A stretch of DNA of 64,000 nucleotides from positions 2,666,001 to 2,730,000 of the forward strand of contig NZ_CP121648.1 of assembly GCF_029714205.1 (NCBI RefSeq), written 5' to 3'. The notes below the pieces were generated by a model. The model was not told the origin of the DNA. It made no database searches and worked only from the letters and a program-made list of their open reading frames with translations. The number at the start of each line of letters is the position of its first letter. The first letter of the stretch is position 1. Made by a program: the position numbers and the translations under genes. Shown piece by piece: positions 36,741-61,767 of the stretch. Source of the stretch: Methylobacterium sp. CB376. GTDB lineage: Bacteria > Pseudomonadota > Alphaproteobacteria > Rhizobiales > Beijerinckiaceae.

Positions 36741-37227
36741 GCGGGGAGGGCACGATCATCCGGCGGCGGCGCGCACCCGCTGGTTCCGGTTGCCCGGAGC
36801 GATCGCGGGACGGAGGTGCGCCGGCCCCACGATGAGCCGCACGGGACCGCGGGCCTCGTTCGCAGGCCCCACATACCAAATCCGCTTGATCCCTTCGGGA
36901 TGGCGGATCGGGGCTTCGCTCGGGCGGCGCGCGGGCTCGCGATCCGGGATCCGCCGTGATCAACCGGATCCCGTCTCAGAGGCTGAACAGGACTCGCTCG
37001 GACACGGAGATGGCGACACGTGCCGGACGGCCTGCGCGACCACGCCGCGGACGTGCGAGGGATCGGGCGGGATCGCTGACCCATGCTGCGGCGCGCGTGC
37101 GGCGAGCCTCAGAGCCTCTCAGCACGAGGGAGGATGTGACCCGCCACACCTGCGAGCTACCGAGGATCCAGGCTTCGCGGCACGCCAGGTCAGAAGGGGC
37201 GTCGGGAACCGCTCGATCGTCGACCTC
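36741..37227. other. 487-bp intergenic region without a recognised gene
   Basis: No credible coding frame is seen. It holds a family B repeat at 36880-36975. The rest (36976-37227) has no obvious terminator, tRNA or conserved motif. It lies between a plus-strand membrane-protein gene and the 3' end of the minus-strand C93 peptidase. Confidence 0.5.
36880..36975 (+). repeat. Dispersed intergenic repeat, family B, copy 2
   Basis: Starts CATACCAAATCCGCTTGATC and runs through TTCGGGATGGCGGATCGGGG, GCGCGCGGGCTCG and an inverted repeat GATCCGGGATCC ... GGATCCC. These blocks match the reverse complement of 41889-41990 along nearly its whole length and that of 12413-12515 in part. Confidence 0.75.
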
Positions 37228-37929
37228 TCAGCGGTTCGCGGTGGTGACCGGCGAGGCGACGCCGTTCAGCGACACCCAGGCCAGACCCTCCTGGCCCTCG
37301 CGCTTCACGTAGGTGTATCCGGTGCGCTGCCACGGCAGGATCGCGTTGGTCTTGTTGTCGAGGATGTAGTCGCCCCGGTCGGTGCGCACCATCAGCACCG
37401 CGTGGCCCTCGCCGATCTCGTCGATCACCACCGTCATGCGCAGGGCGCGGCGCGGCAGGCCGCGCTCCACCAGCATTCGGCGCTTCAGGAGCTGGTAATC
37501 CTCGCAATCGCCGTAGCCGTCGTCGGGGAAGTCCCAACGGTCGACCACGCCCCAATGCGCCTGGTCGGTGAGCGGCTTGATGCGGGAATTGACCCGCCGG
37601 TTCACGGCCACCAGCGTCTTCATCAGGGCCGGCGTCAGGGTGATCGCCGCCGGCTCGTTGACGTCGACCGCGCACTCGCCCGGATAGCGCTGGCAGAACT
37701 CGACCCAGGCGCTCACCGGCTTGGCCGAACCGCCGCGCTCGATCGCCGCGCTCGCGTCCGGGAGGGCCGCCAGGGTCTGGGTCTGGGCCTGGCTGGTGGC
37801 GCCGCCGATCAGCAGCGTGGCGCCCACGAGACCGAGTTGCGCGGCACGGGCGCAGCGCGAGATGAGGCCCTGGCGATCGACACCGCTCGCCCGGCCAGGG
37901 CCAACCAACACAACCCGCATCTGCCCCAT
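37228..37929 (-). CDS. Periplasmic transglutaminase-like cysteine peptidase (BTLCP, C93), copy 1
   Basis: Encodes 233 aa. A signal peptide lies at about 25-48 (AAQLGLVGATLLIGGATSQAQ). The C93 domain has WVEFCQRYPGECAVDV, then the catalytic Cys in GYGDCEDYQLLKRRML, the His in GEGHAVLMVRTDRGDYILDNKT with the Asp in YILDN, and the closing ILPWQRTGYTYVKRE. Some BTLCP proteins (LapG) cleave periplasmic adhesins, but others have unknown targets. It lies next to a closely similar copy (38064-38711) on the same strand. Confidence 0.9.
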   Translation of the reverse strand: MGQMRVVLVGPGRASGVDRQGLISRCARAAQLGLVGATLLIGGATSQAQTQTLAALPDASAAIERGGSAKPVSAWVEFCQRYPGECAVDVNEPAAITLTPALMKTLVAVNRRVNSRIKPLTDQAHWGVVDRWDFPDDGYGDCEDYQLLKRRMLVERGLPRRALRMTVVIDEIGEGHAVLMVRTDRGDYILDNKTNAILPWQRTGYTYVKREGQEGLAWVSLNGVASPVTTANR

Positions 37930-38063
37930 CGACCCATGTGCAAATTCGTTGCACGCAGGCTGCCACGGTGCAGGGACCCGCTCAACCGAAAAATTTAAAC
38001 CTTAATGAACGTCCCCGCCGCATTTCGGTTCCAATTCGAGACGTCCAATTCGGCGCTGATTCG

Positions 38064-38711
38064 TCAGCGATTGGCCGTCATGGTCGGTCCGGTCGCGCCG
38101 CCCAGGGAGACCCAGGCCACCGCGCTCTGGGACTCGCGCTTGATGAAGGTGTAGCCGGTCCGGTGCCAGGGGAGCACCGCGCTGGTCTTGTTGTCGAGCA
38201 CGAGGTCGCCGCGGTCGGTGCGCAGCATCAGCACCGCGTGGCCCTCGCCCTTCTCGTCGATCACCACCGTCATGCGCATCGCCCGGCGCGGCAGGCCGCC
38301 CTCGGCGAGCAGCTTGCGCTTGAGCAGCTGGAAGTCCTCGCAATCGCCCGTGCCGTCCTCGGCGAGGTCCCAGTGGTCGGGCACGCCCCAATGCTCCTGG
38401 TCGGTCACCGGCTGGATGCGGGTGTTCACGCCGCGGTTGACCGTGAGGATGGTTTGCCAGACGCGCGGGCTCAGCGTGATCGTCTCGGGCTCGGAGGGGT
38501 CGACCGCGCATTCCGCCGCGTAGCGCTGGCAGAACTCGACCCAGGCCGCGATCGGGCGGGCGGCACCGAGGCTGGGCGCCGCCAGCGTCGTCGCCGGCAG
38601 GGCCGCGACGGTCTGGGCCCGCGCCGCCGGCGCGGCGCCCAGCAGCGCCAGCATCGCCACCGCGCCGAGACCCGCGGCGCGCGTCCAGATCGTCCCCGTC
38701 TTCCTGCTCAT
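38064..38711 (-). CDS. Periplasmic transglutaminase-like cysteine peptidase (BTLCP, C93), copy 2
   Basis: Encodes 215 aa. ATG 38711 is chosen because AAGGGG lies 9 nt upstream; ATG 38720 is possible. The signal peptide is AAGLGAVAMLALLGAAPAARA. The domain order is the same as in the neighbour: WVEFCQRYAAECAVDPSEPE, TGDCEDFQLLKRKLL (Cys), GEGHAVLMLRTDRGDLVLDNKT (His, Asp) and LPWHRTGYTFIKRE. The two share most of the catalytic domain but differ in the N-terminal part, consistent with an old tandem duplication. Substrate unknown; no LapA-like adhesin is visible in this window. Confidence 0.9.
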   Translation of the reverse strand: MSRKTGTIWTRAAGLGAVAMLALLGAAPAARAQTVAALPATTLAAPSLGAARPIAAWVEFCQRYAAECAVDPSEPETITLSPRVWQTILTVNRGVNTRIQPVTDQEHWGVPDHWDLAEDGTGDCEDFQLLKRKLLAEGGLPRRAMRMTVVIDEKGEGHAVLMLRTDRGDLVLDNKTSAVLPWHRTGYTFIKRESQSAVAWVSLGGATGPTMTANR

Positions 38712-44231: not shown

Positions 44232-44503
44232 CGCGGAGTTCCATCTCTCCCGGACAGCGCGCTGCGCTCGCGGGACAGCCACGCTCACCCGCGCGTCGGC
44301 CCGCGCTGCAAGCCCGATCGGTGCAAGCCCGGGAGCCGGCGCGCGCGGTACCGTCGCCCGCACCTGACCTAAAGTCAACGCGTCGAGACGCCGCCTTGCA
44401 GGAGAACGGGCAAGTTCTCGACGTTCACGCCCTCGATACGCGAACGCGATCCGGCCCGGGCGCGCCCGACGAATCGGAGGGCGCGCCCGCCCCCGCGCCA
44501 TGG

Positions 44504-45211
44504 TCAGCGCTGGACCACCTGCATCAGGTTGCCGTAACCCGCCTGCACCGCCGTGATCAGGCTGGCGCTCGTGTTCCATTGCCCGAGAACCGCGTGGTTC
44601 GCCTCGCCGCTCTGACGCAGAAGCACCGTCGAGTCGGCAGTCCGATATAGAGTCACGTCTGCCGTCTGGCTCAGATCGTATTGAGAGACGGCGATCGAAG
44701 AATTTGTCGTTTCTTGTTGCGAAAGCACGGCGTAGTGCTTCTGGCCGAATTGAGACAGCCAGATCGAGCTGTCCTTCGTGCCGCTCTGGATGATGATATT
44801 GTCGTTCTTGTAGCCATTCTGTCCAACGTAGATCACGCTGAACAGTCCTGACGTCTGCGTGACCTGCGTGTTGTTTTCCGTGTCGGCCTGATTGAGCTGG
44901 ATCACATTGCCCTTGCCGCCGCTCTGGCTGAGCGCGAAGGTGTTGCGGTTGCCCTCCTGGACGCCCGAGATCATGTTGTACTGGCCGTCCTGGGTGATGG
45001 TGCCGGCCTCGGCGCCGCTCGCGTCGCGGCCGTTCTCCAAGCCGCTCTGCTCGAAGGTCACGGATCCGCCCTGACCGGTCTGCGTCAGGTCGATGAACGC
45101 GCGCTGCCCGGTCTGCCTGAGATTGGCCACGTTGGAATCGCCCGCCAGGGCGGCGGAGGCGACCACGACACCCGCGAGACCGGCGACGACCGCCGCGAAA
45201 TTCCTCGACAT
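44504..45211 (-). CDS. Curlin-repeat amyloid subunit (CsgA-like), copy 1
   Basis: Encodes 235 aa; about 215 mature residues after SAALA are repeats with the pattern (L/V/I)xQxGxxN: VANLRQTGQRAFIDLTQTGQ, TITQDGQYNMISGVQEGNRN, FALSQSGGKGNVIQLNQADTENN, VIYVGQNGYKNDNIIIQSG, IWLSQFGQKHYAVLSQ. That is longer than E. coli CsgA (about 150). It should be the major extracellular amyloid fibre subunit. DNA in this gene is visibly less GC-rich than the flanks. ATG 45211 (GGGGA at the proper distance) is preferred to ATG 45217. Confidence 0.86.
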   Translation of the reverse strand: MSRNFAAVVAGLAGVVVASAALAGDSNVANLRQTGQRAFIDLTQTGQGGSVTFEQSGLENGRDASGAEAGTITQDGQYNMISGVQEGNRNTFALSQSGGKGNVIQLNQADTENNTQVTQTSGLFSVIYVGQNGYKNDNIIIQSGTKDSSIWLSQFGQKHYAVLSQQETTNSSIAVSQYDLSQTADVTLYRTADSTVLLRQSGEANHAVLGQWNTSASLITAVQAGYGNLMQVVQR

Positions 45212-45511
45212 TTGCATTCCCCGATAGATGACTGATCTTCACGATGCACAGACATGTCGAACTGGAGCGTCTTCGGTGACAATTGCGTGTCACCAGCACA
45301 GTCGAACGTCCGTATTAACGCAGCGTTAGGTATTATGATCGCGGCCGGCCCGCATCATTCATTCTGATGAAGCGCGGCGCGGGACCCCGACCCGGTGCCC
45401 GCGCGCGGCGGCGGGCGCCCCCGCCGCGAGGCGCCGAAATGCCGGGAGAACAAGAGGAAACCGCGACGTGCCGCCGCCATCGCCCGCGGTGCCGCGATGG
45501 GCGCGGGCAGA
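45212..45511. other. Control region of the curlin genes
   Basis: 300 bp without a gene. On the minus strand it has an AT-rich stretch (CATAATACCTAACGCTGCGT, around 45318-45337) about 110-130 bp before the CsgA-like start, probably the promoter. No clear regulator operator is recognised. Confidence 0.4.
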
Positions 45512-49118: not shown

Positions 49119-50192
49119 TCAACCGCGCGCCGCTTCCCCGCGGCGCGTCTCGGGGGGCCGGCGGCCGTCCGGCACCTCGGCCCAGCTGCGGCCGTCGAGG
49201 AGGCGACGGGCGGCCCTCCCGCCGGTCCGCCCGCCCTCCGCGAGCCCTCCGTCGGGCTCGGGCGGTCCGCCGCCCACGCTCCCGTCCCCGTGCTGATGGA
49301 AGCGGAAGGCGACTCCGGCCGCCGCGCACTGGTCCCGCAGCGCGCGGGCCCAATCCGGATGCATCGGCCGGCTCCCCGGTCCCGTCTCGCCGCCGACGAC
49401 CACCCAGTCGAGGCCCTGCCGCCCCTCGGGCAGCAGCGGGAGCGCGGCGAGGCCGGTGCGGAAGTCGGCCCCTCCATCGAGCCTCGCGCTCGCCGAGACG
49501 GCGCCCGTCAGCGCGTCGAGGTCGAGATGGGCGGCGATTCGGAGCGCGCGCAGGTCGACGGGGCCGAGCAGCGGCTCCGCCGAGATCCAGCGCAGGGCGG
49601 CGGGCGTCGCGAGCAGGTCGAGGATCCGCTCGTTGGCGCGGCCCTGGTCCTCGGCCGAGACGCCGAGCCAGACGTTCGGCAGCGGCCTGCGCTGCACCAC
49701 GAGGAGGTCCCTCAGCCCGTCCGCCAGCGCCCGGGCGCCGGCATGCGCGCGGGCGGCGTGCCCGAGCTCGTCCATGATCCGGCCGCCGCGGCCGCGATCG
49801 CCGAGGTAGGCCCGCATGCGCGCCGACCGCTTCGTCAGCACCTGGAAGGTGTGGTGCGGCGCCAGCGCCATGACGGCGAAGACGCGGTCGATCCACCTCT
49901 CCGGGACGGCCTCCGCGAACAGGTCGCCGTGCGCGCAGACGCGGATCATCCGCGGCCGGCGCCAGCGCAGCGGCCGGTCCAGCCACGCCTCGTTGAACCG
50001 CACCTCCCCCGTCCAGACGGGACCCGCCTCGCCGTCCCGCGTCAGCCCCGCCCGCGAGGGGTGGTGCCGGAGCCGGGTGCCGGACAGCCGCATCGCGTCG
50101 CAGCGGAGGCAGCCGGCGGAGACCGCCGAGCAGCCGGTGATGACGTTCCAGGTCGCGTCCGGCGGCGCATCGCCGTGCTCGGACCGTGTCAT
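49119..50192 (-). CDS. DUF5131-family (phage Gp37/Gp68-like) protein
   Basis: Encodes 357 aa. The opening TWNVITGCSAVSAGCLRCDAMRLS is the family signature with three clustered Cys (CSAVSAGCLRC), a probable radical-SAM-like iron-sulfur site. Further landmarks are FNEAWLDRPLRWRRPRMIRVCAHGDLFAEAVP, FQVLTKRSARM, LPNVWLGVSAEDQGRANERI and DWVVVGGETGPGSRPMHPDWARALRDQCAAAGVAFRFHQHG. The family is common in mobile elements and phages of alphaproteobacteria; function unknown. The C-terminal 50 residues are low-complexity. Confidence 0.87.
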   Translation of the reverse strand: MTRSEHGDAPPDATWNVITGCSAVSAGCLRCDAMRLSGTRLRHHPSRAGLTRDGEAGPVWTGEVRFNEAWLDRPLRWRRPRMIRVCAHGDLFAEAVPERWIDRVFAVMALAPHHTFQVLTKRSARMRAYLGDRGRGGRIMDELGHAARAHAGARALADGLRDLLVVQRRPLPNVWLGVSAEDQGRANERILDLLATPAALRWISAEPLLGPVDLRALRIAAHLDLDALTGAVSASARLDGGADFRTGLAALPLLPEGRQGLDWVVVGGETGPGSRPMHPDWARALRDQCAAAGVAFRFHQHGDGSVGGGPPEPDGGLAEGGRTGGRAARRLLDGRSWAEVPDGRRPPETRRGEAARG

Positions 50193-50653: not shown

Positions 50654-51196
50654 ATCGGCCGGCTGCCGCCCTCCCCGCCGTGCCGCAGGGCGGATCCCGC
50701 CGCCTCTTCGCGGCGTCGCGCCGGCCGGAGCGGGGCCCGCCCGCCTCCGGCGGCATGCCGTCCCGGCGCGGGGCCCACCCGGCGGCGCCCACCGAGGAGC
50801 CGGGCTGCCGCTGCCGGCGGGCTCCACGCGACGAAGCCGCGACGTGACGAAGCCGCGACCTGCCGCCCAGCCCGGGGGCGGTTCATCGCGACCGGCCGGC
50901 CCGTCCGGCGCCGGCGCACGCGGGCGCCGGAGTCCCTCTCCGGCCTGATCTCCCGCCATGCCGTTCCGGCCCCTCCCACCTCGGCTCGACCCTCACGGAC
51001 GCTCGATCGGCATCGGTGTCCGACACGGCTTGCGAGATGGCGGATCGCAAGATGTCCGATTTGACGTAGGGATTGTCCGTTCGCGCGACGCCGGACATGC
51101 TGTAGGTGTCTAACACTTCTCACTATCCTCCGATGCGGGGCGCTGCCGAATTGTTCGGATAATCTGCCCTGCGGCGCTGATAATGAGGAGATTCCG
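50654..51196. other. 543-bp region upstream of the BKACE gene
   Basis: No gene is convincingly supported. A minus-strand frame at 50883-51116 (77 codons) starts plausibly (MLDTYSMSGVARTDNPYVKS) but turns to low complexity and has no ribosome-binding site. The composition shifts from very GC-rich (50660-51000) to AT-richer (51040-51196). A 45-bp motif shared with 53083-53127 lies at 51053-51097. Confidence 0.45.
51053..51097 (+). promoter_or_regulatory. Shared 45-bp motif, copy 1 (upstream of BKACE gene)
   Basis: TGTCCGATTTGACGTAGG-GATTGTCCGT-TCGCGCGACG-CCGGACA matches 53083-53127 at 36 of 45 positions without gaps. It lies about 100-145 bp before the BKACE start, where an activator site would be. 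It may be a binding site of the AraC regulator encoded between the copies, or a duplicated remnant of that gene's 3' end. Confidence 0.5.
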
Positions 51197-52015
51197 GTGG
51201 AAAAACTTATCATCACGGCAGCCGTGAATGGCGGTATCACCAATCGCGAAAAAAATTCCAATGTCCCTTACTCCCCAGAAGAGATCGCACAATCAGTTGT
51301 CGAGTGCTGGAATGCCGGAGCTGCGATCGCCCATATCCACGCGCGCAACCCTGACGGATCGCCATCCTATGCAGCAAGCACCTACAGGGAGATCATCGAT
51401 CGTATTCGCGACCGCTGTGACATCATCATCAATTTCAGCACTTCGGGCTTGAATCTCCCCAAAGGTCAGTCTGTCTCTGAAGCCTGGAACCATCTCCAAT
51501 TCAAACCCGAAATTGCCTCGTTCAATTGCGGCTCGATCAATCACGGTGGCAAGCCGTTCATCAATCCTCCAGAGATGTTCCGGGCGTTAGCCGCCGACAT
51601 GCAACGGTTCGGAGTCAAACCCGAGATCGAGGTCTACCACGAAGGCGTGATCGAGGAAGCCAGGCTCCTGATGAAGGAGGGCCTTCTTCCTGACAAACCG
51701 TTGTTCACATTCGCTCTCGGGATCCGCGGCGCGACGTCGGCGACGTGCAAGAACCTTCTTCATCTCTCCGAATGCATTCCATCCGGAAGGCCCTGGTCGG
51801 CCCTGGCGATCGGCAAGGCTCAGCTTCCCATCAACGTGCATACCATTCTGCTCGGCGGTCACGTCCGAACGGGATTCGAGGACAACGTCTACTACTCGCG
51901 CGGCGAGCTTGCGCGGAGCAACGCACAGCTTGTCGAACGCATCGTCAAACTGTCTGAGGATTTCGGCCGCGAGATCGCGTCGGTGTCAGACGCGCGAAAG
52001 CTGCTGGATCTTTAG
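51197..52015 (+). CDS. BKACE-family beta-keto acid cleavage enzyme (DUF849)
   Basis: Encodes 272 aa, the usual BKACE length. GTG start with GAGGAG 6 nt before. The Zn site is in AAIAHIHARNPDG (His46 and His48, the numbering of 3-keto-5-aminohexanoate cleavage enzyme). Other signatures are FSTSG, FNCGSINHG, KPEIEVYHEGVIEEA and LGGHVRTGFEDNVYYSRGELARSNAQLVERIVKL. BKACE enzymes react a beta-keto acid with acetyl-CoA to give acetoacetate and a new acyl-CoA. Substrate is not decidable. The gene is clearly poorer in GC than its neighbours (A/T in many third positions), indicating transfer. Confidence 0.93.
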   Translation: MEKLIITAAVNGGITNREKNSNVPYSPEEIAQSVVECWNAGAAIAHIHARNPDGSPSYAASTYREIIDRIRDRCDIIINFSTSGLNLPKGQSVSEAWNHLQFKPEIASFNCGSINHGGKPFINPPEMFRALAADMQRFGVKPEIEVYHEGVIEEARLLMKEGLLPDKPLFTFALGIRGATSATCKNLLHLSECIPSGRPWSALAIGKAQLPINVHTILLGGHVRTGFEDNVYYSRGELARSNAQLVERIVKLSEDFGREIASVSDARKLLDL

Positions 52016-52115
52016 AGCATTTTCCGACGAAGTGGATGCCGGTTCGTCGCGGACAATGCGGCAAGATCAAAGATCGAGAGCGGCACCCGATTGCAACGTG
52101 ATCGGGTGCCGCTCT
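52014..52115 (+). repeat. Dispersed intergenic repeat, family A, copy 2
   Basis: Starts inside the BKACE stop codon with AGAGCATTTTCCGACGAAGT and GGATGCCGGTTCGTCG, nearly the same as the copy at 6784. It ends in a perfect 15-bp inverted repeat AGAGCGGCACCCGAT / ATCGGGTGCCGCTCT (52077-52091 / 52101-52115). The hairpin may also terminate the BKACE transcript. Confidence 0.8.
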
Positions 52116-52235
52116 AGCCGCTCCGCTCCCCGTTCGACGAGTCACCCTTCGGCGTCGGTCGGAGCACCGTCGCATCGCACGGACGACGCCGGTCACGGGT
52201 GGACGCCGGATGCGGCCCGTTGAACAATCCGAGAG

Positions 52236-53099
52236 ATGATCGCCAAGAGCACCGATCCCGCCAAGAGCACCGATCCTGCCAAGAGCACCGATCCCGAGGA
52301 CTACGAGGCGTCGCGCCACGGGATCGTCGCGATGCCCAAGGAGTTCCCGTCCGGCTTCCATGTTCCCTCGCACGTGCACAAGCGTGCGCAGCTGATCTAT
52401 GCGACCGCGGGCGTGATGGAGGTGACGACGGCGGACGGCCTGTGGCTGCTGCCGCCTCAGCGCGCCGTCTGGATGCCGGCCGGCATCGCTCATGCGATGC
52501 GGGCTCGATGCGACGTGTCCCTCCGAACGCTCTACATCGCGCAGGAGGCCTGCCCCGCGTCGTTTCCCGAGACGCCCCGATCGGTCCGCGTATCGGTTCT
52601 CCTGAGGGAGTTGATCCTGCGCGTGGCGAGGATGCCGCTGGAGCGGGAGCCGACCGAGCACGAGCGGCGCGTTCTCGATCTGCTGCTCTACGAGATCACC
52701 TGGGAAGCCGACGGCGTCCTCTATCTGCCGATGCCGAAGGACAAGCGGCTGGCAGGCCTCTGTCAGGCGCTGATCGACGACCCCGGAGACGGCCGTGACC
52801 TGGGAGACTGGGCGAGGCAGGCCGGAGCGTCGTCGCGAACACTGGCGCGGTTGTTCAAGCGGGAATTCGGAAGCAGCTTCCTGGTGTGGCGAAAGCAGCT
52901 GCGCGCGCTCTGCGCCCTGCCACGCCTCGCGGCCGGCGAGCCGATCAGCGTCGTGGCGATCGACCTCGGCTACGAGACGCCGGGCGCGTTCGCGGCCATG
53001 TTCCGGGGCGTGATGGGGGAAAGGCCCAGTCGCTACTTCGACGCGGGCGTTCCAGCGCCTCTGGGCGACGCGCACCTCACGCTGTCCGATCTGACGTAG
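52236..53099 (+). CDS. AraC-family transcriptional regulator with cupin-like sensor
   Basis: Encodes 287 aa. Residues 3-20 are three copies of KSTDPA. The sensor domain (about 25-110) is cupin-like: HVHKRAQLIYATAGVMEVTTADGLWLLPPQRAVWMPAGIAHAM. The C-terminal double HTH (about 175-275) has WARQAGASSRTLARLFKREFGSSFLVWRKQ and ISVVAIDLGYETPGAFAAMFRGVMG. Proteins of this build often regulate a divergent or following transporter gene; here the next gene is an EamA exporter 55 bp on. Its own ligand may be the substrate or product of the BKACE step, which is a guess from position. Confidence 0.9.
   Translation: MIAKSTDPAKSTDPAKSTDPEDYEASRHGIVAMPKEFPSGFHVPSHVHKRAQLIYATAGVMEVTTADGLWLLPPQRAVWMPAGIAHAMRARCDVSLRTLYIAQEACPASFPETPRSVRVSVLLRELILRVARMPLEREPTEHERRVLDLLLYEITWEADGVLYLPMPKDKRLAGLCQALIDDPGDGRDLGDWARQAGASSRTLARLFKREFGSSFLVWRKQLRALCALPRLAAGEPISVVAIDLGYETPGAFAAMFRGVMGERPSRYFDAGVPAPLGDAHLTLSDLT
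52242..52295 (+). repeat. 18-bp coding tandem repeat (x3) at the AraC gene start
   Basis: GCCAAGAGCACCGATCC(C/T) occurs three times head to tail (52242-52259, 52260-52277, 52278-52295) with a single base difference. It encodes (A)KSTDP repeats between the start codon and the sensor domain. Confidence 0.9.
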
Positions 53100-53127
53100 C
53101 GTTTGACCGGACCCGCGACGCGAGACA
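53083..53127 (+). promoter_or_regulatory. Shared 45-bp motif, copy 2 (3' end of araC-type gene, upstream of exporter-hemB)
   Basis: TGTCCGATCTGACGTAGC and the following bases match 51053-51097 at 36 of 45 positions. It covers the last codons of the AraC gene and ends 28 bp before the exporter start. As an operator it would place the exporter-hemB pair and the BKACE gene under the same control. Confidence 0.5.
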
Positions 53128-53154
53128 GCGACGCCGCGCGTATCGTCCTCGCCC

Positions 53155-54096
53155 ATGATGCAAGGCAGATCATCGCGATCCTACCTCGTCCTGGTGCTCC
53201 TCTCGACCTTTCTCCAGGGGTCGTCCTTCGTAGCCACCAAGGCCGTTCTCCAGGACGTTCAGCCGATGTGGCTGGCGACGCTGCGCTTCGCCCTGGCCGC
53301 AGTGTCGTTGCTGCCTGTCCTGATCCCGCGCCTCCTGCGGCCGCGCGGGGAAGGCGGCCCGCCGCTGCCCTGGCTCCGGCTCGCCATCATCGGCCTGCTG
53401 CAATCCACCGGCGTCATGGCCTTCCTGAACATCGGGCTGACCTCGACCACGGCACCGATGGCCGCCATCCTGATGGCCAGCAATCCGCTGCTCGTCGCGC
53501 TGCTCGCCGGCCTCGTCCTCAGGGAACCCGTCCGCGGGCAGGTATGGGCGGGGCTCGCGATCTCGTTCATCGGCGTGGTGATCTGTATCGGCGCGGGTAC
53601 CGTGATTCATGGAGCGGTCGGCCGGGGCGAGCTCCTGGTCATGCTCGGCTCGACATGCTGGGCCCTGGCGACGCTCGTCACCAAGCGTTTCAACCTGCAT
53701 GTCGACGCCTGGGTGCTGGCGTTCTGGCAGATGCTGTTCGGGTCCATGGCGCTCGCGCTCGTCGCGCTGGTCCGCGGCGACGATTTCAGCCTGCCGGCCA
53801 GCACGACGACGTGGCTGTATTTTCTATGGCTCGCCATACCTGCCTCGACGGGCGCGATGGGGCTCTGGTTTGCCGCCCTTCGGATCGGCGGAGCGGTTCA
53901 CACGAGCGGGTTCCTCTTTCTCTGTCCGCTCTTCGCGGCGGTGATGGCCTTCGTCCTCCACGGCGAAGTGGTGTCGTGGAATGAGATCGCGGGAGGCCTG
54001 CTGATCGCGATCGGGATCGTACTGGTCACCCGGCAGCGTGCTCTCGCGGCGCTCCCTGCAACGACTGGCCGCGCGTCGGCCGGGAGGGTGCCGTGA
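53155..54096 (+). CDS. EamA/DMT-superfamily exporter
   Basis: Encodes 313 aa with ten hydrophobic helices in two EamA repeats. First half: [81 protein letters not shown]. Second half: [20 protein letters not shown] and [39 protein letters not shown] members mostly export small metabolites such as amino acids. It overlaps hemB by 4 bp (GTGA at 54093), so the two are coupled; a link between transport of an amino-keto acid and hemB is speculation. Confidence 0.9.
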
Positions 54097-55079
54097 CGGC
54101 CCACTTTCCCCTGCGCAGGCCGCGCCGGCTCCGCCGAACGTCGGCGATGAGGTCGCTCGTGCGCGAAACCAGCCTGTCCTCGCACGACCTCATCTATCCG
54201 GTGTTCGTGGAGGAGGGCATCACGGACCCGATCCCGATCCCGACGATGCCCGGGATCACGCGCGTGCCCGAGCGAATGCTGGCCCGGGAGATCGCGCGAC
54301 TTGCCGCGGACGGCCTCAGGGCAGTGATACTATTCGGAATCTCGCATCGTAAGGACGCCCACGGCAGCGACACCTGGGACCCGAACGGTCTCATGGCGAG
54401 GATGGTGCGGATCGCCAAGCGGGAAGTCCCTGATCTGATCGTGATCACCGACAATTGCTTCTGCGAATACACGCATCACGGCCATTGCGGCGTCTATCGT
54501 GAGGGGCAAGTCGACAACGATGCGACGCTGACCAACCTCGGTCGCCAAGCGCGGGTCGCCATCGAGGCAGGGGCCGACATGGTGGCTCCCTCGGCGATGA
54601 TGGACGGGCAGGTCGCTGCCATCCGCCGTGCGCTGGACGAGGGGGGCCATCACGACGCGCCGATCCTGGCCTATTCGTCGAAGTTCGCGTCGGCGTTCTA
54701 CGGTCCCTTCCGCGCGGCGGCGGCCTGCGAGCCGATCGGGGACCGCTCGTCCTACCAGATGGATCCGGCGAACGGGCGGGAGGCCTTGCTCGAGTCGCTG
54801 CTGGACGAGGCCGAGGGCGCCGACATGCTCATGGTGAAGCCAGGCTTGGCCTATCTCGACGTGCTGACGCGGTTGCGGGACCGCACGCCCCTGCCGCTCG
54901 TCAGCTATCAGGTCGGCGGCGAGTACGCGATGATCAAGTTCGCGGCCGATGCCGGCGCTCTCGATGAAGCGGCGACGGTCCGTGAAAGCCTGTTGGCCAT
55001 GAAACGGGCCGGTGCGACCTTGATCGTGAGCTACTATGCGCACCGTGCCGTGAAGGACGGGTGGATCGGTCTGTCCTGA
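54093..55079 (+). CDS. hemB: Porphobilinogen synthase (delta-aminolevulinate dehydratase), Zn-type
   Basis: Encodes 328 aa, normal for the family. Two active-site lysines are seen in [13 protein letters not shown] (K197) and [11 protein letters not shown] (K249, Schiff base). The metal loop is [16 protein letters not shown] with Cys122, Cys124 and Cys132, the Zn-binding pattern. It condenses two 5-aminolevulinates to porphobilinogen in the heme and cobalamin route. Alphaproteobacteria normally use the Mg type with Asp in this loop, so this looks like an acquired and possibly second copy. The start GTG overlaps the exporter stop. Confidence 0.95.
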
Positions 55080-55309: not shown

Positions 55310-55386
55310 TGGCGACCCCGGTAGGGCTCGAACCTACGACCTGCCGCTTAGAAGGCGGCTGCTCTATCCAGCTGAGCTACGGGGCC
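55310..55386 (-). tRNA. tRNA-Arg (anticodon TCT)
   Basis: On the minus strand the cloverleaf reads: acceptor GGCCCCG pairing with CGGGGTC (one G:U), D-arm GCTCAGCTGGATAGAGC, anticodon arm GCCGC-CTTCTAA-GCGGC with TCT at the centre, T-arm GTAGG-TTCGAGC-CCTAC, discriminator G and encoded CCA (55312-55310). Length 77 nt. It decodes AGA, and AGG by wobble. Its 3' end faces the BKACE/hemB segment, a typical integration-site orientation. Confidence 0.97.
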
Positions 55387-55487: not shown

Positions 55488-56945
55488 TCAGCCGGCCGCC
55501 AGGGCGTGCAGCCGGTCGAGATCGACGTGGCGCTCCAGGTGGTCGGCGAGCGCGTCGAGCGTCGAGTCCAGGCCGGCCTCGTAGGAGGCGCCGGAAGGCG
55601 CCGCCCCGAGGCGGCCGAGCCAGAGGGCGCGCTGGCGGTCATCCGCGAACAGCCCGTGGACGTAGGTGCCGCAGACCAGGCCGTCGGGCGAGACCGCCCC
55701 GTCCGGCCGGCCATCCGCGAGCCGCAGCAGCGGGCGGGCCGCGTCGGGGCCGCGCGTCTCGCCGAGATGCATCTCGTAGCCGCGGAAAGGGGTCGCGTCC
55801 GGCAGGCTCACGCCCTCGGCCGGGGCGAGCCGCTTGTCCGGGGTCATCACGGTCGCGACGTCGAGGAGGCCGAGACCCTCGATCTCGGGCAACTCGCCCT
55901 CGATCCCGTGCGGGTCCGCGATGCGCGTGCCGAGCATCTGGTAGCCGCCGCAGAGGCCGAGCACCCGTCCCCCGCGGCGCACATGCGCCTTGAGGTCGAT
56001 GTCCCAGCCCTGCTCCCGGAAGGCGATCAGGTCCGGGATCGTGGTCTTCGAGCCCGGCAGCAGGACGAGGTCGGCCTCGGCCGGGAGGGGACGGCCGGGC
56101 GCCACCAGCACCACGCTGACGCCCGGCTCCGCCCGCAGCGGGTCGAGATCGTCGAAATTGGCGATGCGCGGCAGCACCGGCACCGCCACGACGCGCCCGC
56201 CCGGCCGCTCCGCGCCCCTGAGCCCGAGCACGTCCTCCGCCGGCAGGCGGGCCGCCTCGGGGAAGTGCGGGATCAGCCCGAGGGCCGGCCAGCCCGTGCG
56301 CGCCGCGATCAGCGCCATCCCGTCCGCGAACAGGTCCGGATCGCCCCGAAAGCGGTTGACCAGGAACCCGCGGACCATCGCCGCGTCCTCCGGGTCGAGC
56401 ACCGCCCGCGTCCCGACGAGGCTCGCGATCACGCCGCCGCGGTCGATGTCGCCGAGGAGCACCACCGGCGTCCCGCTCGCGCGGGCGAAGCCCATATTGG
56501 CGATGTCGCCCGCGCGCAGGTTCACCTCCGAGGCCGAGCCCGCCCCCTCGACCAGGACGAGGTCCGCCTCCGCGCGCAGGCGCCCGAAACTGTCGAGCAC
56601 GCAGGCCATCAGGCGCGGCTTCCAGCCCTGGTACTCCCGGGCCCGGGCCGTGCCGACCCGGCGCCCCTGGACCACCACCTGCGCGCCGGTCTCGGATTGC
56701 GGCTTGAGCAGGACGGGATTCATGTGGACGGAGGGCGCCACGCCGGCCGCCCGCGCCTGCAGGGCCTGGGCGCGGCCGATCTCGCCGCCCTCCGCCGTCA
56801 CCGCGGCGTTGTTCGACATGTTCTGCGGCTTGAAGGGCCGCACCCTCAGCCCCCGGCGCGTGAAGGCCCGGGCGAGCCCGGCCACGATCAGCGACTTGCC
56901 CACGTCCGAGCCCGTGCCTTGGATCATCAGGGTGCGGGCATTCAT
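55488..56945 (-). CDS. cobQ: Cobyric acid synthase
   Basis: Encodes 485 aa. An N-terminal dethiobiotin-synthetase-like ATPase ([47 protein letters not shown]) is followed by a glutamine amidotransferase domain with the catalytic Cys in [16 protein letters not shown] and the His near [11 protein letters not shown]. It amidates four carboxyl side chains of adenosylcobyrinic a,c-diamide to give adenosylcobyric acid. It is on the minus strand beside cobO-cobP, with only an outer-membrane protein gene between. Confidence 0.97.
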
Positions 56946-57103
56946 CGGCGGCCCTCGCGCGGGGAAAGCGCCGCCTTACCAGAGCCGCCGGCGGACCAGA
57001 AGCGCGCGACTTGAGCGGGCCCTGTGGCAGGATGGCCATAGGCTGCGGCCACGCTTCACTCTATCTTTGGGTGTAGTTCTGCGAACAACCCGGATCCGCG
57101 CCG

Positions 57104-57958
57104 ATGACGAAGACCGCCCTCCTGACCGGCGCCGCCCTGGCGCTCCTCTCCGGCGCCGCCGGGGCCGCCGACCTGCCGCTCCGCGCGGCGCCGCCGCCGG
57201 TCTTCGCCGCCGTGCCGGTCTTCACCTGGACGGGCTTCTACGCCGGACTGCACACCGACTACGTCTTCACCGAGCGGCAGCGCATCACCACGGTCGGCAA
57301 CACCGCCTTCAACCAGGCCAACGTGGCGGCGCTCCTGCGCACCCCGACCACCTTCGCGGAGGTCGACGGCTTCGCCAACGTGGGCGGCGGGATCGGCTAC
57401 AATTACCAGTTCACGCCGGGCAACGGCCTCGTGGTCGGCGTCCAGGCGGACGTGTCCTGGACCGCGATCGAGAAGAACCGCGGCTACCTGAGCCCGACCG
57501 TTCCGGTGCTGGTCAGCACCTACAAGCACAGCCTGAACTACCTCGGCACCGTGGTCGGCCGGGCCGGCTACGCGTTCGACCGGTTCTTCGTGTTCGGCCT
57601 CGGCGGCTTCGCCTTCGGCGACGTGACGACGGGGGCGAACTTCTACAATGGCGGCCTTGCCCTGGCCTATACCGGCCGCACCAGCGACGTCCAGACCGGC
57701 TACGCCTATGGCGGCGGCATCGAGTACGCGATCCCGGCGGACAGCTTCCTGGCCAAGTTCAACGTGCTGAGCCTGCTCGGCTTCCAGACCGCCGCGGTGA
57801 CCCTGAAGGCCGAGTACCTGCACTACGACCTCGGCCGCCGCAACCTGCTCGTCAACAACACCGGTCTTGCCGGCTCGCCCGGCTCCTACACCTCGCGCTT
57901 CCAGACCGAGGGCAACCTCGTGCGGGCCGGCTTCAGCTACAAGTTCAGCGGCCTCTGA
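57104..57958 (+). CDS. Outer-membrane beta-barrel protein (Omp25/Omp31-like)
   Basis: Encodes 284 aa. Signal peptide TALLTGAALALLSGAAGAAD, then the family's DLPLRAAPPPVFAAVPVFTWTGFYAGLHTDYVF (usually TWTGFYxGxNxGY). Alternating aromatic strands follow (VGGGIGYNYQFTPGNGLVVGVQADVSW, YLGTVVGRAGYAFDRFFVFGLGGFAFGDV) and the C terminus ends VRAGFSYKFSGL, typical of the BamA-recognised last strand. A surface porin of Hyphomicrobiales. No link to cobalamin is implied, although it lies between cobQ and cobO. Confidence 0.9.
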   Translation: MTKTALLTGAALALLSGAAGAADLPLRAAPPPVFAAVPVFTWTGFYAGLHTDYVFTERQRITTVGNTAFNQANVAALLRTPTTFAEVDGFANVGGGIGYNYQFTPGNGLVVGVQADVSWTAIEKNRGYLSPTVPVLVSTYKHSLNYLGTVVGRAGYAFDRFFVFGLGGFAFGDVTTGANFYNGGLALAYTGRTSDVQTGYAYGGGIEYAIPADSFLAKFNVLSLLGFQTAAVTLKAEYLHYDLGRRNLLVNNTGLAGSPGSYTSRFQTEGNLVRAGFSYKFSGL

Positions 57959-58002
57959 TACGCCATCCGGTTGATTGCGTCGCGAGGCGGATGTCGGATG
58001 AG
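57959..58002 (+). repeat. Dispersed intergenic repeat, family B, partial copy 4
   Basis: TACGCCATCCGGTTGATTGC followed by GTCGCGAGGCGGATGTCGG resembles the first third of the family B element (ACGAAATCCGATGATTGCTT... ATGCGGATGTCGG on the minus strand at 12.5 kb). The palindromic end is missing. Confidence 0.5.
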
Positions 58003-58021
58003 CGGCAAGGCCGGGAGGGGA

Positions 58022-58627
58022 TCAGAACTCGATCCCCTCCTGCGCCCGCACGCCCGCCGCGAAGTGATGCTTGACGAGGGTCATCTCGGTGACGAGGTCG
58101 GCCGCGGCGATCAGTTCGGGCTTGGCGTTGCGCCCGGTGACCACGACGTGGAGGTCCGGGCGCCGCGCGGCCAGCGCGGCCACCACCTCGCCGAGAGGTA
58201 GGTAATCGTAGCGCAGCGCGATGCTGAGTTCGTCCAGGATGAGGAGGCGCAGGCCGGCATCCGCCATCAGGCGGAGCGCCTGGGCCCAGGCGGCCTCGGC
58301 GGCGGCCACGTCCCGGGCCCGGTCCTGCGTCTCCCAGGTGAAACCCTCGCCCATCGTGTGCCACGCGACCTGATCCCCGAACCGGTCGAGGGCGAGGCGC
58401 TCGCCGGTCTCCCAGGCGCCCTTGATGAACTGCACGACGCCGACGCGCCAGCCGCGCCCGAGCGCCCGCAGCATCAGCCCGAAGGCCGCCGTCGACTTGC
58501 CCTTGCCGGGGCCGGTATGGACGATGAGGAGGCCCTTCTCGATCGTCTTGCCCGCCACCTCCGCGTCCTGCACGGCCTTGCGCTTGGCCATCTTGGCGCG
58601 GTGGCGCGCGGCCTCGTCGGTCTCCAT
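58022..58627 (-). CDS. cobO: Cob(I)yrinic acid a,c-diamide adenosyltransferase
   Basis: Encodes 201 aa. The P-loop is LLIVHTGPGKGKSTAAFGLMLRALGRGWRVGVVQFIKG. Further CobO/BtuR signatures are LLILDELSIALRYDYLPLGEVV and HVVVTGRNAKPELIAAADLVTEMTLVKHHFAAGVRAQEGIEF. It transfers the adenosyl group of ATP to Co(I) corrinoids. ATG 58627 is 2 bp after the cobP stop, so the two are one transcript. Confidence 0.97.
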   Translation of the reverse strand: METDEAARHRAKMAKRKAVQDAEVAGKTIEKGLLIVHTGPGKGKSTAAFGLMLRALGRGWRVGVVQFIKGAWETGERLALDRFGDQVAWHTMGEGFTWETQDRARDVAAAEAAWAQALRLMADAGLRLLILDELSIALRYDYLPLGEVVAALAARRPDLHVVVTGRNAKPELIAAADLVTEMTLVKHHFAAGVRAQEGIEF

Positions 58628-58629
58628 CC

Positions 58630-59163
58630 TCAGCCTCCCTTCAGGACGAGCGGCAGCCCCGCCGCGACCAGCACGACCCGGTCGGCGATGGCGGCGAGGC
58701 GCTGATGCAGGCGCCCGGCCTCGTCGCGGAAGCGGCGGGCGAGGGCGTTGTCCGGCACGATCCCGAACCCGACCTCGTTCGAGACCAGGACGAGGGGGCC
58801 GGGATGGTGCCCGCAGGCCGCGACCAGCGCCGCCGTCTCGGCCGCGAGGTCGGCCTCGGCGAGGAGCGCGTTGGTCAGCCACAGCGTCAGGCAGTCGACC
58901 AGGACCGGCCGGCCGGCCGGGCTCTCGCCGAGCAGGGAGGGCAGGGCGCGGGGCGCGTCGCGGGTCTCCCAGCCGGCGGGCCGGCGGGCGCGGTGGTCGG
59001 CGATCCGCGCGCGCATCTCGTCGTCGTAGGCCTCGGCCGTCGCGACGTAGAGCCAGGGCGGCGGCAGCGCCTGGACGAGCCGTTCCGCGTAGGCGCTCTT
59101 GCCCGAGCGGGCGCCGCCGAGCACCAGGGTCAGGCGGGGCAGGGCCGCCGGTTCACTCGCCAC
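58630..59163 (-). CDS. cobP: Bifunctional adenosylcobinamide kinase / adenosylcobinamide-phosphate guanylyltransferase
   Basis: Encodes 177 aa. The P-loop is LVLGGARSGKSAYAERLV, followed by WLYVATAEAYDDEMRARIADHRARRPAGWETRDAP, where the His serves as the GMP-linked residue. DCLTLWLTNALL and LVLVSNEVGFGIVPDNALARRFRDEAGRLHQRLA complete the CobU/CobP family. It phosphorylates adenosylcobinamide and transfers GMP for lower-loop assembly. GTG 59163 is the only suitable start. Upstream is the lysR gene, 41 bp away, on the same strand. Confidence 0.95.
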   Translation of the reverse strand: MASEPAALPRLTLVLGGARSGKSAYAERLVQALPPPWLYVATAEAYDDEMRARIADHRARRPAGWETRDAPRALPSLLGESPAGRPVLVDCLTLWLTNALLAEADLAAETAALVAACGHHPGPLVLVSNEVGFGIVPDNALARRFRDEAGRLHQRLAAIADRVVLVAAGLPLVLKGG

Positions 59164-61410: not shown

Positions 61411-61557
61411 GCCCGGATCGGGCCGGCCCGCGGCGACGGAAGCCGGGGCTCCTGCCGCGATCGCGCGCGGTTGCGGGTGCGATTGCGGGCGCGATAGCCG
61501 GAAACCCGCCCTCCGGCCGATTGCGCGCGGGGGGCCGAGCCGCTACCTTCCGCCGCG

Positions 61558-61735
61558 ACGGTGCCTCGGCGACGAGGTGAAAAGGGAACGCGGAGCGGGG
61601 CCAGCCCCGGAAGCCGCGGCTGCCCCCGCAACTGTGAGCGGTGCGGGCCCGCCATCGGCCACTGGAGCGATCCGGGAAGGCGGCGGGCACGGTCCACCAT
61701 CGCGAGCCAGGAGACCTGCCGTCACCCCTTCCTCT
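61558..61735 (+). ncRNA. Cobalamin (B12) riboswitch
   Basis: The classical order of elements is visible: GGTGAAAAGGGAACGCGG, then AAGCCGCGGCTGCCCCCGCAACTGT with the conserved CCCCCGCAACTGT, then AAGGCGGCGGGC, and the B12 box GAGCCAGGAGACCTGCC at 61704-61720. It is placed 30-40 nt before cbtB. Adenosylcobalamin binding should repress translation or transcription of the cbtB-cbtA-DUF1636-cobW transcript. The ends are approximate. Confidence 0.95.
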
Positions 61736-61767
61736 CGACGCCGCCGGCGGGGCGGCAGGAGTTCACC

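Follow-up and report, generated by a model that had tools for sequence, protein, structure and literature searches.

A gene cluster combining a BKACE-family enzyme with a second, zinc-type porphobilinogen synthase in Methylobacterium sp. CB376, possibly a reduced antimetabolite cassette

Organization of the locus

The DNA analyzed here (the window) is a stretch of 64,000 nucleotides from Methylobacterium sp. CB376 (contig NZ_CP121648.1, positions 2,666,001 to 2,730,000), and the subject of this work is a group of four adjacent genes within it, in which a relative of the beta-keto acid cleavage enzymes (BKACE) stands together with a regulator, a membrane transporter and an additional porphobilinogen synthase (PBGS, HemB). 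These genes were singled out in an initial annotation, made from the sequence letters, and their adjacency was borne out: all four lie on the plus strand and have full-length family matches. The first (51197..52015, GTG start, 272 aa) encodes a BKACE-family (DUF849) Claisen/retro-Claisen enzyme that matches PF05853 over its full length and passes the family test with 310.4 bits against a cut-off of 24.8; the beginning initially proposed for the feature, position 51053, falls in the DNA upstream of this start. The following genes encode an AraC-type regulator (52236..53099, 287 aa; HTH_18, 70.5 bits, and AraC_binding) and an EamA/DMT-family membrane transporter (53155..54096, 313 aa; PF00892, 150 bits), families that had both been named correctly. 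The last gene, which also starts with GTG (54093..55079), encodes the second HemB of the genome (ALAD PF00490, 434.5 bits), and its first 4 nt overlap with the end of the EamA gene, as expected from the coupling suggested at the outset. The protein was likewise correctly recognized as a HemB of a second type, since it passes the PRK13384 test for Zn-type PBGS (576.4 bits, cut-off 507) and carries the zinc cysteines C122, C124 and C132 together with the active-site lysines K197 and K249, while the other genomic copy is Mg-type.

The G+C content confirms that the BKACE gene is unusually poor in these bases: it is 0.566 at 51000-51999 and 0.66-0.68 in the AraC, EamA and HemB genes, against surroundings (40-64 kb) that are mostly at 0.70-0.79, with a single further dip to 0.626 at 44500-45499. 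The right-hand border of the low-GC stretch is, as first described, a tRNA-Arg(TCT) gene on the minus strand (55310..55386; ARAGORN and Rfam tRNA). Between the BKACE and AraC genes, folding predicts an RNA hairpin on the plus strand (52077..52115) whose arms, read directly, form 18 pairs, two of them G-U. The region around it reaches -108.6 kcal/mol (z -4.19), a value that none of 200 shuffled sequences equaled. This hairpin is a possible transcription end for the BKACE gene, and its position makes a single four-gene transcript doubtful. The scan for sigma-70 promoters gave 0 matches, with 0.5 expected. The codons for the N-terminus of AraC contain an 18-bp unit three times in tandem (52242-52296), giving a KSTDPA repeat.

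An empty insertion site was sought in 60 stretches (1.2 Mb) of a genome of the same species (G050), where the sole match to the window was a 1.5-kb repeat, located at 37023-38555 in the window, 99.2% identical to its counterpart and probably a mobile element. Elsewhere in the surroundings, a DUF5131-family gene occupies 49119-50192 on the minus strand, to the left of the low-GC stretch, and 40551-40715 matches the small RNA family CC2171 of Caulobacter with 100.8 bits. Downstream of the tRNA gene are CobQ-type and CobO-type genes (55488-58882) and a cobalamin riboswitch (61542-61737).

Distribution of the gene cluster

Within Methylobacterium, a second HemB of this kind was found in one of 111 genomes, which is that of the window itself. 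The full-length HemB matches in the other genomes are at most 49% identical to it (one genome, G024, gave no match, and another, G078, two fragments), and the best match to the window BKACE outside its own genome is 44% identical. The same-species genome G050 has a single HemB (48%) and no close BKACE. Proteins from M. currus and Methylobacterium sp. B1 are considerably closer, with 77 and 78% identity, respectively, for the BKACE and 82 and 77% for the transporter, and the pair is probably present in these two strains as well. Their clusters, as those of Zobellella and of several metagenome contigs, are deduced from the proteins and not from directly seen loci.

The initial annotation had proposed a possible co-regulated module of the four genes, and the adjacency search shows the module itself to be real and conserved, BKACE, AraC, EamA and HemB being found side by side in three genomes of Halomonadaceae and in one of Janthinobacterium. 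In the Halomonadaceae (the family of Larsenimonas), 3 of the 275 genomes contain a clustered BKACE that is 63-64% identical to that of the window, and the Halomonas AraC and EamA proteins are 44 and 54% identical to their window counterparts. Two of these loci (L158 and L159) are fuller than the window cluster and have the order BKACE-HemB-hydrolase-thiolase, facing EamA-AraC, with 4-nt overlaps in L158 between BKACE and HemB and between hydrolase and thiolase; the third (L160) contains the four genes of the window, the hydrolase being gone and the thiolase reduced to its tail. The Janthinobacterium cluster, found in 1 of 40 genomes, consists of AraC facing HemB-hydrolase-BKACE-EamA, also with a BKACE 63-64% identical to that of the window, and it was the only one recovered among 314 Burkholderiaceae genomes. 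One of 298 Pseudomonas genomes, searched by means of EamA with seven candidates scored per genome, has BKACE, a gap, hydrolase and thiolase facing EamA-AraC, and both HemBs of this genome are encoded elsewhere. Upstream of this cluster (L174:39-5038) are genes for LuxR, LuxI, a DUF6190 protein, a DHDPS-family enzyme and a heme-oxygenase-like iron enzyme; together they resemble another biosynthetic set, one linked to quorum sensing. Finally, six Vibrio plasmid records encode, some 2 kb apart and on one strand, a HemB and a BKACE that is 58.8% identical to that of the window, and in two of the six the order is BKACE-hydrolase-thiolase-HemB-EamA followed by a SnoaL/LuxR protein. Among the matches listed, nine pairs of BKACE and EamA proteins and four links involving HemB were noted, their linkage being deduced.

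The cluster is rare and scattered, and its presence in distant bacteria suggests that it moves horizontally. It was found in none of 394 Enterobacterales genomes and in none of the 369 genomes of a class-wide sample, zeros which show only rarity, given that neither sample held a known positive. For accessory HemBs on other plasmids the surroundings are different, and the record from Sinorhizobium fredii is unannotated. A Rhizobium brockwellii plasmid (L054:6953-9878) encodes, besides hemB and hemC, a divergent second HemB-like protein (29-31% identity) annotated as hypothetical. On a Sinorhizobium chiapasense plasmid (L053), a Zn-type HemB lies beside a Rid hydrolase, FAD oxidoreductases, an aminotransferase and a permease, and the same families flank a HemB in an Ensifer genome (L068), possibly a further setting for accessory HemBs. 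In addition, 562 Klebsiella records of the plasmid collection, in which some records are chromosome-sized, have a HemB match below 63% identity.

One BKACE lineage and several HemB lineages

The trees of the two enzymes were built from hand-chosen rows, 40 for BKACE and 49 for HemB, the latter including 19 of 120 listed proteins. In the BKACE tree, the 13 cluster proteins group together, apart from 14 outside BKACEs, with support 100/99, in a clade that is proteobacterial; six of the 13 were indirectly assigned to clusters and some of the outside rows are long-branched. The metal-binding histidines are kept in the clade (His48 in 23 of 23 rows and His46 in 22), and Asn11, Tyr58, Asn86-Leu87-Pro88, His116, Lys119, Tyr147 and His148 are shared by 22 or 23 of the 23 rows each. 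Three of these, His116 and Lys119 (both in 23 of 23) and His148 (22 of 23), are rare or absent in the 14 outside proteins, and we infer that a dicarboxylate, with its second carboxylate, would be accommodated by such additional basic residues close to the presumed substrate end.

The window BKACE falls below the cut-off of all four curated BKACE families that it matches, among them that of 3-keto-5-aminohexanoate cleavage (308.5 bits, cut-off 382) and NF053568, a 3-oxoadipate:acetyl-CoA acetyltransferase family (212.4 bits, cut-off 350). The latter result leaves 3-oxoadipate possible as a substrate, since the family was described on other BKACEs. The thiolases of the fuller clusters pass the TIGR02430 cut-off of 597 for PcaF (Halomonas 653.5, Vibrio 656.6 and Pseudomonas 673.8 bits), and the cluster hydrolases are Abhydrolase_2/DLH-like, with no specific family. 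The initial annotation had suggested a pathway for an amino-keto acid. As worded, this suggestion was not supported, because a curated substrate exists for just one cluster enzyme, the 3-oxoadipyl-CoA thiolase of the relatives, and this thiolase, together with the sub-threshold score for 3-keto-5-aminohexanoate cleavage, led us to reject an amino-keto or lysine-type substrate as the principal interpretation.

The HemBs behave differently from the BKACEs. All five genomes with a HemB inside the cluster have two such proteins, the cluster copy being Zn-type and the other Mg-type, and the Pseudomonas genome also combines a Zn-type HemB (60% identical to that of the window) with a Mg-type one, both outside its cluster. 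Thus, in all six chromosomal cluster genomes a Zn-type enzyme is found beside a Mg-type one, and the housekeeping copies are Mg-type in six of six. In the HemB tree, the window copy is placed among alphaproteobacterial Zn-type HemBs, as sister to that of Telmatospirillum, the Vibrio copy and the Halomonas and Zobellella copies fall in two parts of a gammaproteobacterial group, and the Janthinobacterium copy stands on a long branch of its own. A single clade of cluster HemBs, a grouping put to the test with the first tree already known, was rejected (approximately unbiased test, p-AU 6.7e-7), and the starred branches force at least four changes in a count that left out five rows of unknown setting. 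A stricter test kept 39 of the 49 rows, dropping Janthinobacterium, four indirectly assigned cluster rows and the same five rows; it was confined to the five directly seen cluster HemBs and also rejected the single clade (p-AU 5.1e-11), with three changes, of which at least two are forced.

Unrelated origins of the BKACE and hemB genes had been named at the outset as grounds for abandoning the idea of a module. This was found in part, as the HemBs come from several lineages, but the BKACEs form a single clade, and the combination reads as repeated pairing and not as chance. On the evidence of the trees, either one BKACE lineage was paired with different HemBs several times or the HemB was exchanged under selection, and under both histories the pairing of the two enzymes matters.

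A possible antimetabolite cluster and its alternatives

These observations could be integrated by assuming, as we tentatively favor at somewhat short of even confidence, that the genes form an antimetabolite cluster in which HemB is a spare copy of the target, the product being succinylacetone (4,6-dioxoheptanoate) or a near analogue, and of which the window holds a reduced copy. We infer the direction of the pathway, its product, export, resistance and regulation from the gene inventory. In the fuller clusters, the PcaF-type thiolase would join succinyl-CoA and acetyl-CoA into 3-oxoadipyl-CoA, from which the alpha/beta hydrolase may release 3-oxoadipate, and the BKACE, in what is proposed as the last carbon-carbon bond step, would add or exchange a C2 unit. 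This could take place by C-acetylation of 3-oxoadipate with acetyl-CoA and subsequent decarboxylation, as BsfD of the flavophos pathway acts on a phosphonate analogue, or by the BKACE working in the joining direction, in which 3-oxoadipyl-CoA and acetoacetate would give 3,5-dioxooctanedioate, followed by loss of CO2. Both routes would lead to succinylacetone or a close analogue, and inhibition of PBGS by 4,6-dioxoheptanoic acid is stated in PMC4863617 and PMC13258150. EamA would then export the product, the extra Zn-type HemB would sustain heme synthesis in the producer and AraC would control expression. The window cluster, which lacks thiolase and hydrolase, would need 3-oxoadipate or its CoA ester from the metabolism of its host. 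The more specific proposition that exported succinylacetone, or an analogue, acts against heme synthesis, that the Zn-type HemB self-protects hosts whose own HemB is Mg-type, and that BKACEs are thus general builders of diketone inhibitors, is held with less confidence still. A HemB inhibitor with HemB as a spare target accounts better for the gene set than the amino-keto acid pathway does. A survey-level literature search found no bacterial succinylacetone cluster and no cluster of HemB with BKACE. If the proposal is correct, a bacterial genetic origin would be available for a compound that is familiar from human tyrosinemia and serves as a laboratory blocker of heme synthesis, one reason would be given for the two HemB genes of different metal type in some bacteria, and the small gene set makes it directly testable by expression.

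Several observations weigh against this proposal. The enzymes could equally run towards breakdown, the window cluster and L160 are without thiolase and hydrolase (apart from the thiolase remnant of L160), the Pseudomonas cluster has no HemB, and in two of the six Vibrio records the EamA is about 27% identical to that of the window and AraC is missing. The genes also occur in partial sets, as an AraC-EamA pair unaccompanied by BKACE or HemB (Azotobacter plasmid) and as AraC-HemB without BKACE or EamA in Telmatospirillum (L061). HemB failed as a marker of the module, since none of 80 genome loci fetched with it had this BKACE or EamA adjoining; 13 of these genomes were searched whole, and five gave a BKACE match, the best with 41% identity. 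The catalytic residues of HemB are unchanged in 9 of the 10 cluster copies (that of Janthinobacterium differs by S167A and Q273N), so that no resistance mutation is visible; such mutations may not be needed, as overexpressed lumazine synthases of other species were also protective in the flavophos system. Lastly, the window BKACE is more distant from BsfD (152 bits) than from the 3-keto-5-aminohexanoate cleavage enzyme CcaKce (198 bits), and it shares with all 23 clade rows a tyrosine, Tyr147, equivalent to CcaKce Tyr145, where BsfD has Phe. PMC12871164 describes a catalytic Tyr as common to all BKACEs; in our own alignment, the 14 outside BKACEs have Phe at this position, and the residue may thus not decide the chemistry.

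The roles best described for BKACEs and PcaF are catabolic, and the genes might serve the catabolism or detoxification of an environmental beta-keto or beta-diketo acid, for instance a HemB inhibitor made by others, which would be cleaved to acetoacetate, succinyl-CoA and acetyl-CoA, with EamA expelling the remainder and HemB giving tolerance. The retained Tyr147 agrees with this, as does the cleavage reaction of BKACEs described in PMC12871164, and the same enzyme set and HemB copy would be equally expected; nevertheless, EamA transporters usually export, which suits a producer better, and the LuxR and LuxI genes that precede the Pseudomonas cluster by about 4 kb, although no proof, are common beside exported products. 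We regard this alternative as unlikely, if still worth serious consideration. The idea that HemB is itself a pathway step, condensing 5-aminolevulinate in a Knorr-type reaction with a beta-dicarbonyl made by the cluster to yield an unusual pyrrole for export by EamA, draws on the alpha-amino ketone nature of 5-aminolevulinate, which fits this chemistry, and on the HemB kept beside the BKACE in five of the six chromosomal clusters and in the Vibrio records. A shared new activity would favor a single lineage, whereas the HemBs of the clusters trace to several ordinary HemB lineages, their PBGS active sites are intact and the Pseudomonas cluster does without a HemB, which makes this explanation improbable.

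The cobalamin genes beside the cluster in two lineages keep alive, against the antimetabolite proposal, a reading in which the additional HemB supplies the synthesis of heme or vitamin B12, EamA moves aminolevulinate and the BKACE is incidental. To the genes and the riboswitch downstream of the window cluster must be added that the three Halomonadaceae clusters adjoin an uptake operon of the TonB-receptor/ABC kind with a cobalamin riboswitch in front of it (L158:13616-13858; L159:1890-2117; L160:2288-2516), with CobS and CobU genes nearby in L159. However, no such riboswitch was found in the Janthinobacterium, Pseudomonas and Vibrio loci, nor a cobalamin gene among the neighbors read there, and the BKACE, its constancy, the thiolase and the hydrolase would go unexplained; a role in tetrapyrrole supply is accordingly given a low probability. 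A similarly small chance is assigned to the window copy being a resistance relic that makes nothing, with AraC, EamA and HemB guarding against a HemB inhibitor of neighboring organisms and the BKACE left over. The absence of thiolase and hydrolase, the overlap of HemB with EamA, the AraC gene in the same direction and the hairpin that sets the BKACE apart would all suit such a relic, but the BKACE is intact, including its metal ligands and the residues of its clade. As to chance neighbors in foreign DNA next to a tRNA gene, the low GC and the strain-specific distribution are compatible with them, yet the same families lie within 7 kb of each other in four other lineages. This repeated clustering in other genera contradicts the notion, which we consider highly improbable, and indicates that the four genes are more than chance neighbors.

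Comparison with known systems

Within the beta-ketoadipate pathway, PcaF is the counterpart of the thiolases of the fuller clusters, which pass its cut-off but sit with BKACE, hydrolase, EamA and HemB (in Pseudomonas without HemB); the window cluster has none. The amino group of the CcaKce substrate is bound by Glu14. The window BKACE belongs to the same fold family and has the metal-binding histidines and the equivalent of Tyr145; however, it carries Ile14 in place of this glutamate and, as described above, does not reach the NCBIfam cut-off. With respect to the target, alaremycin of Streptomyces is described in PMC12670364 as a natural bacterial inhibitor of PBGS, as the product proposed here would be. 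No member of the aminolevulinate-synthase-like family is present among the four window genes, and a succinylacetone-type product would represent a second type of natural product aimed at HemB.

The closest parallel is the flavophos (bsf) cluster of Burkholderia, known from a preprint (PMC12871164) that describes a BKACE homologue, an EamA transporter and a duplicated target enzyme that confers resistance, a combination matched in the window by the BKACE, EamA and a duplicated essential enzyme, HemB. According to the same preprint, BsfD acetylates 3-oxo-4-phosphonobutanoate, using acetyl-CoA to turn a beta-keto acid into a 1,3-diketone, and the duplicated lumazine synthase gave resistance. There are also differences: the flavophos route is a phosphonate pathway with PepM, and neither PepM nor a Pmm synthase is found among the four window genes; its target is lumazine synthase, whereas here HemB is duplicated and 3-oxoadipate would serve as the precursor; and BsfD, with Phe166, is a distant relative of the window BKACE, with Tyr147. 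Judged by this analogy, the window cluster would work like the flavophos cluster without being a member of it, since it has no phosphonate genes among the four, a different target and a BKACE distant from BsfD, and it would then provide the second case, after flavophos, of a minimal antimetabolite cassette in which a duplicated target is combined with a BKACE and an exporter.

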